From Blautia sp. An249 (lineage in GTDB: Bacteria; Bacillota; Clostridia; Lachnospirales; Lachnospiraceae): DNA of 64,000 nt. Position numbers and translations under genes: made by a program. Positions 3,356-54,643 of this stretch are shown one piece after another. Positions within the stretch are counted from its first letter, which is position 1, and each line of letters begins with the position of its first letter. The notes beneath the pieces are model-generated. The model was not told where the DNA came from, searched no databases, and saw only the letters and a list, made by a program, of their open reading frames with translations. The stretch spans positions 1 through 64,000 of the forward strand of contig NZ_NFJL01000008.1 of the NCBI RefSeq assembly GCF_002159835.1, read 5' to 3'.

Positions 3356-3384
3356 TTGACAATTTGTATACATTCTTCTATAAT
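3356..3384 (+). promoter_or_regulatory. Perfect-consensus sigma-A promoter
   Basis: TTGACA (3356-3361), a 17-bp spacer and TATAAT (3379-3384) match the consensus exactly. It would transcribe the leader peptide at 3419 and, on readthrough, the aldolase gene. Confidence 0.9.
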
Positions 3385-3418
3385 ACAGATAATTGATGAA
3401 AACAAAGGAGTTTTTCCG

Positions 3419-3544
3419 ATGATGGCAGGAGAACAGAAACATGTAAATACAAATGCATATTTCTTTTTTGGTTACTGGTACTTTTTTGGTACCAGCTTTT
3501 GTGCTGCATTGGAAACATTCCGGGAAAGTCAGAACAGCCAGTAA
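3419..3544 (+). CDS. Aromatic-rich leader peptide (attenuator)
   Basis: 41-codon ORF starting ATGATG (3419 or 3422), with RBS AAAGGAG at 3404-3410. The middle encodes AYFFFGYWYFFG: ten of these twelve residues include five Phe, three Tyr and one Trp. This density of aromatic codons is the hallmark of leader peptides that sense charged aromatic tRNAs. The codons lie across a hairpin (CTGGTAC at 3475-3481 with GTACCAG at 3489-3495). The stop codon sits inside a second stem (CAGTAAT 3539-3545 with ATTACTG 3549-3555). An intrinsic terminator follows at 3572. In other bacteria such leaders control aro, trp or phe genes; here the next gene is a DRE-TIM aldolase. The peptide is probably regulatory, not functional as a protein. 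Confidence 0.8.
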   Translation: MMAGEQKHVNTNAYFFFGYWYFFGTSFCAALETFRESQNSQ

Positions 3545-3571
3545 TCAGATTACTGAACAGATGAATGACGA

Positions 3572-3605
3572 GCCGATGTTTGCTGATGCAGACATCGGCT
3601 TTTTT
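3572..3605 (+). terminator. Intrinsic terminator of the aromatic attenuator
   Basis: GCCGATGT (3572-3579) pairs with ACATCGGC (3592-3599) around a 12-nt loop and is followed by six T. It lies 27 nt after the leader-peptide stop codon, as expected for an attenuator. Confidence 0.85.
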
Positions 3606-3606
3606 A

Positions 3607-3640
3607 TGTAATAGGAAATTCCGTTGGATTTCCTGTTGCA
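3607..3640. repeat. 34-nt dispersed palindrome, copy 1
   Basis: Near-palindrome beginning TGTAATAGGAAATTCC and ending GGATTTCCTGTTGCA. The same 34-nt unit recurs at 15500-15533 and 54565-54598. In all three places it begins one to five bases after the T-run of an intrinsic terminator and is followed by A-rich sequence and a GCTTCGC/GCTCCGC motif. Confidence 0.8.
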
Positions 3641-3699
3641 GAAAAATCGCTTCGCACACAATGCGCAGAAAATCAGAAAAGGCAGAAAGGAGAGTTTTT

Positions 3700-4644
3700 A
3701 TGAAGCAGAAAATTTTGGATTGCACATTAAGGGACGGAGGACTGGTAAACCGCTTTTATTTTACAGATGAGTTTGTAAAGAAACTGTATCAGACGAATCT
3801 GGAAGCGGGAATTGACTACATGGAGTTTGGCTATAAGGCGTCTGAGGAGCAATTCGACAGGGATGCTTTCGGAAAATGGAAGTTCTGCCGGGAAGAGGAT
3901 ATTCGGGAAATCGTGGGAGAGAATCCCACTTCCATGAAAATTTCTGTGATGGCAGATGTGGGAAGGACGGATTATAAGAAAGATATTCTGAACCGAAAAG
4001 ACAGTGTAATTGATATGGTTCGGATTGCCACCTACGGAAACACCATAGAAGAAGCTCTGGAAATGACAGAGGACTGCTCAGAAAAGGGATATGAAACCAC
4101 TGTGAATATAATGGCTGTCTCCAATCATACAGAGAAGGAACTGGAAAAGATTCTGGAAAAACTGAAGGATTCTCCGGTAAATACGGTTTACCTTGTGGAC
4201 AGTTACGGCTCTTTCTACCCGGAGCAGATTCGCAGACTGGCAGACTTATACCTGGGAATCATGAAAGGTACGGAAAAAGAAATCGGGATACATGCCCATA
4301 ATAATCAACAGCTGGCATTTGCAAATACTATTGAGGCAATGCGCCGGGGAGTGTCCTTTCTGGATGTGACAGTCAACGGCATGGGCAGAGGCGCCGGAAA
4401 CTGCTCCACCGAGCAGCTTCTGGGATATCTGGGAGATGGTTTCCAGGAAATTCCGGTTCTGAAATTTATTGAAGAGCAAATGCTGCCCCTAAAGAGGCAG
4501 GGAATTCTCTGGGGATATGATATTCCCTACCTGCTGACGGGACAGGAGAAGCAGCATCCGTCTTCTGCTATTGCATTTATGCAGGAGCAGAAGACCCAGT
4601 ACAGCCAGCTTCTTAAGAATCTTCAGGCATTAAGCGCTTCATGA
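3700..4644 (+). CDS. DRE-TIM (HMGL-like) aldolase family protein
   Basis: 314-aa TIM-barrel enzyme of the HMG-CoA lyase / isopropylmalate synthase / 4-hydroxy-2-oxovalerate aldolase superfamily. The N-terminal metal and catalytic motif is DCTLRDGG (residues 7-14, R11 and D12). The barrel carries the metal-binding HAH (H198, H200) and the glycine-rich NGMGRGAGN near 226. It probably makes or breaks a C-C bond next to a carbonyl, using a divalent metal. The substrate is unknown, and no acylating dehydrogenase partner lies nearby. The start at 3700 is chosen because GAAAGGAGAG precedes it; the frame stays open further upstream only by running through the palindromic repeat. The aromatic leader and attenuator upstream suggest control by aromatic amino acid supply. 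Confidence 0.75.
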   Translation: MKQKILDCTLRDGGLVNRFYFTDEFVKKLYQTNLEAGIDYMEFGYKASEEQFDRDAFGKWKFCREEDIREIVGENPTSMKISVMADVGRTDYKKDILNRKDSVIDMVRIATYGNTIEEALEMTEDCSEKGYETTVNIMAVSNHTEKELEKILEKLKDSPVNTVYLVDSYGSFYPEQIRRLADLYLGIMKGTEKEIGIHAHNNQQLAFANTIEAMRRGVSFLDVTVNGMGRGAGNCSTEQLLGYLGDGFQEIPVLKFIEEQMLPLKRQGILWGYDIPYLLTGQEKQHPSSAIAFMQEQKTQYSQLLKNLQALSAS

Positions 4645-4727: not shown

Positions 4728-5033
4728 ATGGCAAAATCAGCAAATTTATATGCAAGAATAGAACCAGAGGTAAAAGAACAGGCAGAGAGTATCTTATCAG
4801 CACTGGGTATTCCAGCGTCAAATGCTATTAATATGTTTTATAAGCAGATTATCATGCACCGTGGACTTCCTTTTGATGTGAAAATCCCGACAGAAAAGCC
4901 GCTTAACATGGCTGTTTTGTCTGAGGAACAATTCCATGCGGAACTTGAGAAAGGATATGCGGATATGAAAGCGGGACGTACAAAGGACGCACGACAAGCC
5001 TTTGACGATATTCGCAAAGATTACGGATTATGA
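4728..5033 (+). CDS. RelB/DinJ family antitoxin
   Basis: 101-aa antitoxin. The N-terminal part (about residues 1-50) is the ribbon-helix-helix DNA-binding domain of the RelB/DinJ family: a short strand (NLYARIEPEVK) and two helices with the family hallmark ALGIPASNAINMFYKQI. The C-terminal half is charged and probably flexible, and would wrap the toxin. It should neutralise the toxin encoded next and repress their shared promoter. RBS GAGAGGAGCG precedes the ATG. The stop codon overlaps the toxin start (ATGATG), the classical translational coupling of type II pairs. Confidence 0.9.
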   Translation: MAKSANLYARIEPEVKEQAESILSALGIPASNAINMFYKQIIMHRGLPFDVKIPTEKPLNMAVLSEEQFHAELEKGYADMKAGRTKDARQAFDDIRKDYGL

Positions 5034-5350
5034 TGTTTACAGTAAAATTATCAGAACAGGCAGACAAAGATTTAAGGTCGATATATGAATATATTGCGTA
5101 TGATTTACAGTCACCAGACAATGCACGTGGACAGCTTGACCGTCTGGAAACTATGATTTTCAGTCTTGACAGTATGCCGAAACGCTATAGGAAATACGAG
5201 AAAGAACCGTGGCACAGCCGAGGACTTCGTATCGCTCCTGTAGATAATTATGTCGTATTGTATATCCCTGATGTGGAAACGACAACAGTAACGATTATTC
5301 GTGTAGCATATGTTGGGCAGGATATTGAACGATTGCTTGCTTTTACGTAA
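5030..5350 (+). CDS. RelE/ParE family toxin
   Basis: 106 aa (105 if translation starts at the second ATG, 5033). It has the RelE/ParE fold pattern: an N-terminal strand (FTVKLSEQADKDL), helices with YEYIAYDL, then a beta sheet with RGLRIAPVDNYVVLY and the C-terminal IIRVAYVGQDIERLL. RelE members cleave mRNA on the ribosome, whereas ParE members poison gyrase. The sequence features here (RGLR, NYVVLY, VAYVGQD) sit in the mixed RelE/ParE family, so the target is not assigned. It overlaps the antitoxin gene by 4 bp. The CIRCE element of clpB begins only 10 bp after its stop. Confidence 0.88.
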   Translation: MMFTVKLSEQADKDLRSIYEYIAYDLQSPDNARGQLDRLETMIFSLDSMPKRYRKYEKEPWHSRGLRIAPVDNYVVLYIPDVETTTVTIIRVAYVGQDIERLLAFT

Positions 5351-15468: not shown

Positions 15469-15495
15469 GGCTGTTGCAGAAATGCAGCAGCCTTT
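15469..15495 (+). terminator. Intrinsic terminator after the lipoprotein gene
   Basis: GGCTGTTGCA pairs with TGCAGCAGCC around a short AGAAA-type loop, followed by TTTT. The second 34-nt palindrome begins five bases later. Confidence 0.8.
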
Positions 15496-15499
15496 TATT

Positions 15500-15533
15500 A
15501 TGTAATAGGAAATTCCGTCGGATTTCCTATTAC
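15500..15533. repeat. 34-nt dispersed palindrome, copy 2
   Basis: Nearly perfect inverted repeat from TGTAATAGGAAATTCCG to CGGATTTCCTATTACA. It differs from copy 1 at three positions and is again directly downstream of a terminator. It is followed by AAAAATCGCTCCGC, shared with the flank of copy 1 (AAAAATCGCTTCGC). Confidence 0.85.
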
Positions 15534-15540
15534 ATAAAAA

Positions 15541-15725
15541 TCGCTCCGCTGTGGATGCGACCAGATGCATGTGGAATTATGACTGCCTGCGGCAGTCTGC
15601 ATCTGGCGCGCAAAGAGTACAAGTCCCTCATGAGTGAGGGATATAGGGAGTTGAAGAGGACTTGTCCTCTTTGTTCTGTAATAGGATTAAGGCGCAGGCG
15701 GAGAATCCTGCCAGCAGGATTCTAT
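15541..15725. other. Cluster of strong hairpins, non-coding
   Basis: No credible gene lies between 15455 and 15791. The stretch holds four inverted repeats in a row: CCAGATGCA/TGCATCTGG enclosing GACTGCC/GGCAGTC (15570-15605); ACAAGTCC/GGACTTGT (15618-15664) enclosing CCCTCA/TGAGGG; and AGAATCCTGC/GCAGGATTCT (15701-15722). TGTAATAGGATT at 15676 echoes the start of the palindrome family. It may be a composite repeat element or a structured RNA. Confidence 0.5.
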
Positions 15726-54309: not shown

Positions 54310-54562
54310 TAACAGAGAAAGGCTGGGAAAAAGAGGAGTATGTCTGTACTGCCAAAAGAGAGAAACGTTCTCAGGCTGAAAGACGTTTCGGGAGAAGGCA
54401 GGCAAAAAGTAGCTTTGGAGCCGGGGGATTGAAGGTGGACACTGTGTAGATTCCCACGTAGAATTCCGCGTTAAGGAATGGAAAGATGAAGTTTGGGAAA
54501 ACTTCAAAGAAGGTGGTACCGCGTTTTTTATCGCCCTTCACACAGTGTGTGAAGGGCTTTTT
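54310..54562 (+). ncRNA. T-box riboswitch, valine-specific
   Basis: tRNA-sensing leader of valS. Stem I runs from about 54331 to 54424, closed by GGCT/AGCC and AAAG/CTTT. The candidate specifier codon GTA (54409-54411, Val) sits directly 5' of the lower helix, followed by the expected purine. The GGCTGAAAG distal region is present. The T-box antiterminator sequence AGGTGGTACCGCG is at 54511-54523. The competing terminator stem, GCCCTTCACAC with GTGTGAAGGGC plus TTTTT, occupies 54533-54562. Uncharged tRNA-Val should favour antitermination and valS expression. Confidence 0.93.
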
Positions 54563-54564
54563 AA

Positions 54565-54598
54565 TGTAACAGGAAATCCAACGGAATTTCCTGTTACA
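54565..54598. repeat. 34-nt dispersed palindrome, copy 3
   Basis: TGTAACAGGAAATCC to GGAATTTCCTGTTACA, 34 nt like the other copies, but its asymmetric centre is the reverse complement of copy 1. It begins two bases after the T-box terminator T-run and is followed by an A-rich stretch and GCGCTCCGC. Confidence 0.85.
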
Positions 54599-54643
54599 GA
54601 ATAAAGCGCTCCGCGCAGGTATTAAATTTATAAGGAGGATGCT

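Follow-up and report, generated by a model that had tools for sequence, protein, structure and literature searches.

The short open reading frame that precedes an orphan aldolase-like gene in Blautia sp. An249 (hereafter An249, the source genome; the window is the 64 kb stretch of it that was analysed) is, with a probability of roughly four in five, the leader of a ribosome-mediated attenuator belonging to a homologous family of aromatic amino acid leaders, the aldolase being its probable target in one lineage and likely having a role in aromatic supply. A first-pass annotation of this DNA had proposed an aromatic attenuator acting on the aldolase, and the homologous leaders and three conserved leader-aldolase pairs described below lend support to that proposal. 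Judged from sequence, the mechanism would be an ordinary one, being ribosome-mediated and based on Phe, Tyr and Trp codons, and we infer that it responds to ribosome stalling. The attenuator represents an RNA family with no Rfam match where scanned, members of which precede genes of aromatic synthesis in three genera. Together with the Tyr T-box of a tyrS operon that includes the aldolase in another lineage, it provides two unrelated aromatic switches that point to one metabolic area, and so brings a strongly conserved aldolase subfamily with an open annotation (no reaction was found on record) within reach of a short list of tests.

Leader peptide and its homologues

The perfect sigma-A promoter, the 41-codon leader with its YFFFGYWYFF run, the intrinsic terminator and the DRE-TIM aldolase with DCTLRDGG and HAH motifs described in the first-pass annotation were each recovered at the positions given in Table 1. 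The An249 leader peptide is MMAGEQKHVNTNAYFFFGYWYFFGTSFCAALETFRESQNSQ, with AAAGGAG upstream of its start and a further in-frame ATG at 3422; hence a promoter, a ribosome-binding site, a short leader ORF and a regulatory codon run, as in ribosome-mediated transcription attenuators, are all present. Nine of the ten codons in the run are aromatic, and no other 10-codon window has at least nine when the 64 kb are read in six frames (127,942 windows); simulating 64 kb 40 times with a third-order Markov model gave a single such window in total.

Table 1. Features of the leader-aldolase locus of An249 (positions in the window)
Feature	Position	Strand	Details
Sigma-A-type promoter, TTGACA-17-TATAAT	3356-3384	+	hexamers match 12/12
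Strand 1, protector (ribosome-binding site and start codon)	3407-3421	+	pairs with 3507-3521; 14 pairs in An249 and G432
Leader peptide ORF	3419-3544	+	41 codons, ATG 3419 to TAA 3542-3544; homologues in 6 other genomes
Regulatory codon run YFFFGYWYFF	3458-3487	+	5 Phe, 3 Tyr, 1 Trp
Hairpin over last aromatic codons, CTGGTAC/GTACCAG	3475-3495	+	covariation in 5 leaders
Strand 2, pairing with 3573-3581 as antiterminator (AAACATT/GATGTTT)	3513-3523	+	core paired in 7 leaders
Intrinsic terminator (strands 3 and 4) and T-run	3570-3605	+	14 pairs at 3570-3601, then T-run
Dispersed palindromic repeat	3600-3655	.	between terminator and aldolase
DRE-TIM (HMGL-like) aldolase-like gene, putative target	3700-4644	+	314 aa, DCTLRDGG and HAH
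RelB-type antitoxin and ParE-type toxin genes	4728-5350	+	directly behind aldolase

Homologous leaders were found in seven genomes, namely An249, three designated G432, G456 and G407 that belong to the same genus, G250 from another genus, and G136 and G224. The G432 leader was found by a DNA search of 64 genus genomes, which also returned short terminator matches in G456 and G407. A profile built from two peptides and run against 397 family genomes identified, besides An249, leaders in G250 (E 3e-12), G136 (2.2e-4) and G224 (8.5e-4), these E-values being per single genome while 397 were searched, such that G136 and G224 are weak on score alone; in both, however, the promoter is perfect, the leader can be aligned, the terminator arms match and the gene that follows is one for aromatic synthesis. 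A five-leader profile over 248 fetched loci added G456 (1.3e-13) and G407 (3e-9), and revealed no leader beyond the seven genomes in any of the 248, L133, L134 and L136-L138 included.

The classical parts of an attenuator are present and alignable in all seven. Perfect promoter hexamers with a spacer of 16-17 precede the leaders of G432, G250, G136 and G224, a promoter-like TTGACT-16-TAAAAT that of G407, and in G456 a TTGACA-16-TATAAT was noted by eye farther upstream. All seven leaders are rich in aromatic codons, and the order of residues within the run differs between them (FGYWYF, FWGFYY, FQGFYY). A second, truncated copy of the leader is present in G432 (L130 5123-5232; G432:C102:22122-22231), beginning inside the aromatic run, ending in the terminator arm and lacking an aldolase behind it.

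Other candidates were discarded. Searching the 397 family genomes for the run pattern with one mismatch hit 15 places across 14 genomes, the one in An249 being the sole leader among them, and a both-strand profile scan of the pattern-match loci revealed no further one. The notion that the leader is nearly unique to An249 was nevertheless ruled out, since the G250 leader escaped the pattern but was found by the peptide profile in the same genomes. Locus L147 (E 0.46) and the short DNA matches L113, L120, L121 and L122 were inspected and rejected as leaders, and the short aromatic ORFs ahead of 17 of the 80 best aldolase relatives at a loose threshold were judged by eye to be noise. One short ORF with YYFFY lies about 304 bases upstream of an aldolase start (L183/L061), and no terminator was found there. 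Two patterns run against viral contigs gave no leader match, and no plasmid matched; among phages, one unannotated record matched 601 query bases at 64%, all of them within the aldolase (window 3731-4331). Neither this leader nor the tyrS-aldolase pair described below was reported in titles or the beginnings of abstracts among the matches listed.

Terminator and competing pairings

The leader RNA folds with a free energy of -74.4 kcal/mol (z -6.56), a value that none of 200 shuffles equalled, while the terminator has a stability of -23.7 kcal/mol. Over the seven leaders 97.9% of cells in the terminator are paired and 3 of its 14 pairs are changed on both sides, which 4 of 500 shuffles reached; a covariation-kept intrinsic terminator therefore lies between leader and gene. 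In the hairpin over the last aromatic codons, 3 of 7 pairs are changed on both sides and 94.3% of cells are paired, as counted in five leaders with G456 and G407 left out. The first-pass annotation had set this hairpin (3475-3495) in competition with one around the stop codon (3539-3555), but the two can coexist. Other pairings are mutually exclusive, namely that of 3407-3421 with 3507-3521 (1:2), that of 3513-3523 with 3573-3581 (2:3) and the terminator. In An249 as in G432, each of these three forms its counted pairs, one terminator pair being changed on both sides; within the strand 1 helix, too, one pair is changed on both sides between An249 and G432, the only two leaders compared for it.

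An antiterminator that excludes the terminator is possible in 7 of 7 leaders by its core pairs, although covariation support for it is weak. The five core pairs are formed in 35 of 35 cells, and one of them has gone from A-U to G-C by changes in both strands: strand 2 reads AACAT in every leader except that of G224, where GACAT is accompanied by a matching change in strand 3. Taken alone, 64 of 500 shuffles were as good as this covariation, and slid versions were 20.6-60% paired. In a folding model with no ribosome, or with one at the stop codon, the 2:3 pairing was absent and the terminator arm free. With a single stalled ribosome the 1:2 helix stayed and 2:3 was again absent, and when a second, initiating ribosome was added 2:3 formed at 5 of 10 codon positions in An249 and at 8 of 10 in G432. 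The simulation thus speaks for the switch in part only.

In the mechanism envisaged, plentiful charged tRNA-Phe, tRNA-Tyr and tRNA-Trp would allow the leader to be read to its stop codon, in which case strand 2 would miss strand 3 and the terminator at 3570-3601 would halt transcription. Ribosomes stalled in the aromatic run would conversely let 3513-3523 engage 3573-3581, the 5' terminator arm, and transcription would then continue into the aldolase. The E. coli pheA and trp leaders are ribosome-mediated aromatic attenuators, and resemble the An249 leader in having a promoter, an ORF with regulatory codons, competing pairings, a terminator and, counted here as a further likeness, a target in amino acid metabolism. 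The An249 leader differs from them in its mixed Phe, Tyr and Trp codons, in forming a sequence family of its own and in the aldolase-like target seen in its lineage. A further resemblance, drawn by description, is to the uORFC-13-1 motif, in which a short ORF with one or more Phe codons and a terminator precede a DAHP synthase gene, aroF, in Acholeplasma; the part of the source drawn on here describes it only for Acholeplasma and environmental sequences (PMC8632094).

Genes behind the leaders and the aldolase-like enzyme

That leaders of this kind accompany aromatic synthesis genes, as the first-pass annotation had asserted, is supported by a search of relatives for the leader peptide, which placed DAHP synthase, alone or with other aromatic genes, behind the leader in four of the seven genomes and the aldolase in three (An249, G432 and G250). 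In G136 and G456 the leader is followed by DAHP synthase, in G407 by DAHP synthase and, after it, a prephenate dehydrogenase-like gene truncated where the locus ends, and in G224 by pheA-aroF-tyrA-aroA-aroC (prephenate dehydratase, DAHP synthase, prephenate dehydrogenase-like protein, EPSP synthase and chorismate synthase). The prephenate dehydrogenase calls in G407 and G224 fall below curated cut-offs, whereas the remaining aromatic enzymes reach theirs; targets in the matching pathway are accordingly present in four of seven genomes. Where a leader precedes DAHP synthase, the enzyme is of the TIGR01361 (B. subtilis) type. An249 and G432 have one DAHP synthase each by PF00793, of the TIGR00034 (aroFGH) type, ahead of which no leader was found. 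No aldolase was detected at E 1e-60 in G456 or G407, assemblies that are only 86% and 75% complete. Leader-controlled DAHP synthase and the aldolase are not exclusive, since G136 holds both the former and a leaderless copy of the latter.

The aldolase matches PF00682 (4.1e-24; 85.8 against a cut-off of 29 bits) and, with its TIM-barrel model (pLDDT 89.8) and its RDG and HAH motifs, belongs to the HMGL-like/DRE-TIM metallolyase fold. The nearest solved structure both by sequence (E 2.3e-35) and by fold (TM 0.81) is 3DXI, the putative aldolase BVU_2661, which is 29% identical and titled merely "putative aldolase". 4-Hydroxy-2-oxovalerate aldolase (1NVM, TIGR03217), which comes next after 3DXI, shares the fold (TM 0.83) and the RDG and HAH motifs, but the An249 protein misses its cut-offs (96.6 against 286 for TIGR03217 and 109.3 against 229 for NF006049), and has Leu15, invariant in 33 aligned rows, in place of the His of DGSH in 1NVM. 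The His after RDG in that enzyme is, we presume, an active-site residue, and the missed cut-offs together with its absence speak against an assignment as 4-hydroxy-2-oxovalerate aldolase. Ninety positions, including R11, D12, H198 and H200, are invariant in the 33 rows (An249 included; picked from more than 80), and An249 and G432 have in common only two residues at odds with what is nearly fixed across the remaining rows, a pattern suggestive of a single function throughout the subfamily. At E 1e-60 the aldolase is present in 45 of 160 evenly drawn family genomes.

The aldolases of G432 and G250 are respectively 74% and 73% identical to that of An249, each lying behind a homologous leader, and the three group together with branch support of 100/100 in an unrooted tree from which an An249 paralog was left out and to which G250 was added; in an earlier tree, with the paralog as outgroup, the base and the leader pair were unresolved. 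Since the 100/100 branch sets the leader-controlled aldolases apart, the simplest account would be that the attenuator was gained once, with an aromatic operon as its presumed source. The leader and aldolase were kept while genera parted and the upstream genes changed, the gene upstream being hexapeptide acetyltransferase-like in An249, an ABC transporter ATPase in G432 and, in G250, an ORF of 162 codons whose methyltransferase match is below cut-off. The first-pass annotation had foreseen that the leader might precede aro genes everywhere else, with the aldolase behind it here by chance. This does not hold, as the aldolase follows in three of seven genomes, from two genera, with different upstream neighbours and grouped aldolases; on these comparisons the aldolase is to be regarded as a kept target and not as a chance insertion.

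A second aromatic link was apparent among the best 80 of 570 aldolase matches, 33 of which lie immediately behind tyrS in the same orientation, with 58 to 310 bases between the end of the tyrS match and the aldolase start. Chorismate synthase is within the locus in 35 of the 80, 33 of these also having tyrS; it lies on the opposite strand near the tyrS-aldolase pair (33 of loci L005-L084). An Rfam T-box precedes tyrS in 10 of the 11 loci scanned out of the 33, and GAATACATC is common to all ten, its UAC being presumably the specifier codon by T-box anatomy. Of the 47 loci without tyrS, 19 were scanned and gave no T-box, and the same was true of nine genus loci. The 33 tyrS-aldolase rows form one group with two loci cut at contig ends. 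The T-box ahead of tyrS, which senses uncharged tRNA-Tyr, differs from the leader in being a tRNA-binding RNA without a leader peptide, and has the same aldolase family behind it. The tyrS lineage together with the attenuator makes an aromatic role for the aldolase likely; most likely, as read from these arrangements, the enzyme contributes to the synthesis, sparing or salvage of aromatic amino acids or of a precursor.

Aromatic control of the aldolase is not general in its relatives. In the even sample, where adjacency was read from coordinates by eye among the tyrS matches listed, tyrS adjoins the aldolase in 2 of 45 genomes (G060, with a T-box, and G041, without a T-box match), and no tyrS for G064 or G128 is among the matches listed. 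An aromatic-rich short ORF with a terminator was found upstream of the aldolase in none of the 44 evenly drawn relatives other than An249 (three of the stretches being short), and an Rfam scan upstream of the aldolase in 40 of these revealed a single T-box, that of G060. Recurrent neighbours of the non-tyrS aldolases comprise five protein clusters in 4-10 loci each, named by eye, and include scattered ABC-type ATPases and, in one group, purine-type genes.

Alternative readings and neighbouring elements

The aldolase could have gained a mobile attenuator by chance and have no part in aromatic amino acid metabolism. The truncated second leader in G432, which shows that leaders duplicate and move, and the lack of such control in the other relatives examined would fit this account; yet the leader-aldolase pair has been kept down to 69-74% aldolase identity in two genera and in different neighbourhoods, the covarying RNA pairs show upkeep, and tyrS with its T-box provides an independent tyrosine link in another lineage, such that capture of this sort seems unlikely. 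A stronger version of the aromatic role, in which the aldolase would catalyse an unrecognised carbon-carbon bond step within aromatic amino acid synthesis or one that supplies it, for example formation of DAHP or a precursor from pyruvate and a sugar-derived aldehyde, is decidedly improbable. Were it true, the aldolase would now occupy the place behind the attenuator that DAHP synthase takes in relatives; to be set beside it is that the sole DAHP synthase of An249 and G432 is of the leaderless aroFGH type, and the leader-controlled one of relatives of the TIGR01361 type.

Little weight, and somewhat less again, is given to the leader answering mainly to another signal, for example as a metabolite-dependent arrest peptide in which the aromatic codons are structural. 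Residues beyond the run are indeed conserved between An249 and G432 (NT-x-AY, ETFRESQ), but the conserved 3' residues overlap strand 2, where RNA pairing can account for them, the residues of the run are ordered differently from leader to leader while aromatic content persists, and aromatic synthesis genes lie behind four leaders. An ordinary T-box or known riboswitch has next to no likelihood, despite the T-box found ahead of tyrS in four of five genus genomes inspected and a T-box-like sequence noted by eye, below the Rfam gathering score, at the An249 tyrS: the Rfam scan of the window gave just one T-box, at 54316-54541, with no RF00230 match at 3356-3700, and no Rfam T-box reached the gathering score in leader loci L001 and L129, which excludes this reading for An249 and G432.

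The first-pass description of the aldolase as the only downstream gene is correct in so far as the aldolase is the one gene behind the leader that is common to the three aldolase genomes, but in An249 a same-strand RelB/ParE-type pair begins 83 bases further on. The palindromic repeat between terminator and aldolase is not part of the switch. It is an imperfect palindrome of approximately 50-60 bp found, in some cases partially, in at least 40 places in the An249 genome, and none was seen at the G432 leader-aldolase site. Window copies occur at 3600-3655, 15494-15549 and 54545-54607, and two of the three lie directly behind leader terminators, those of the aromatic attenuator and of the T-box leader at 54316-54541, the latter being located in front of an ORF that we take to be valyl-tRNA synthetase-like.
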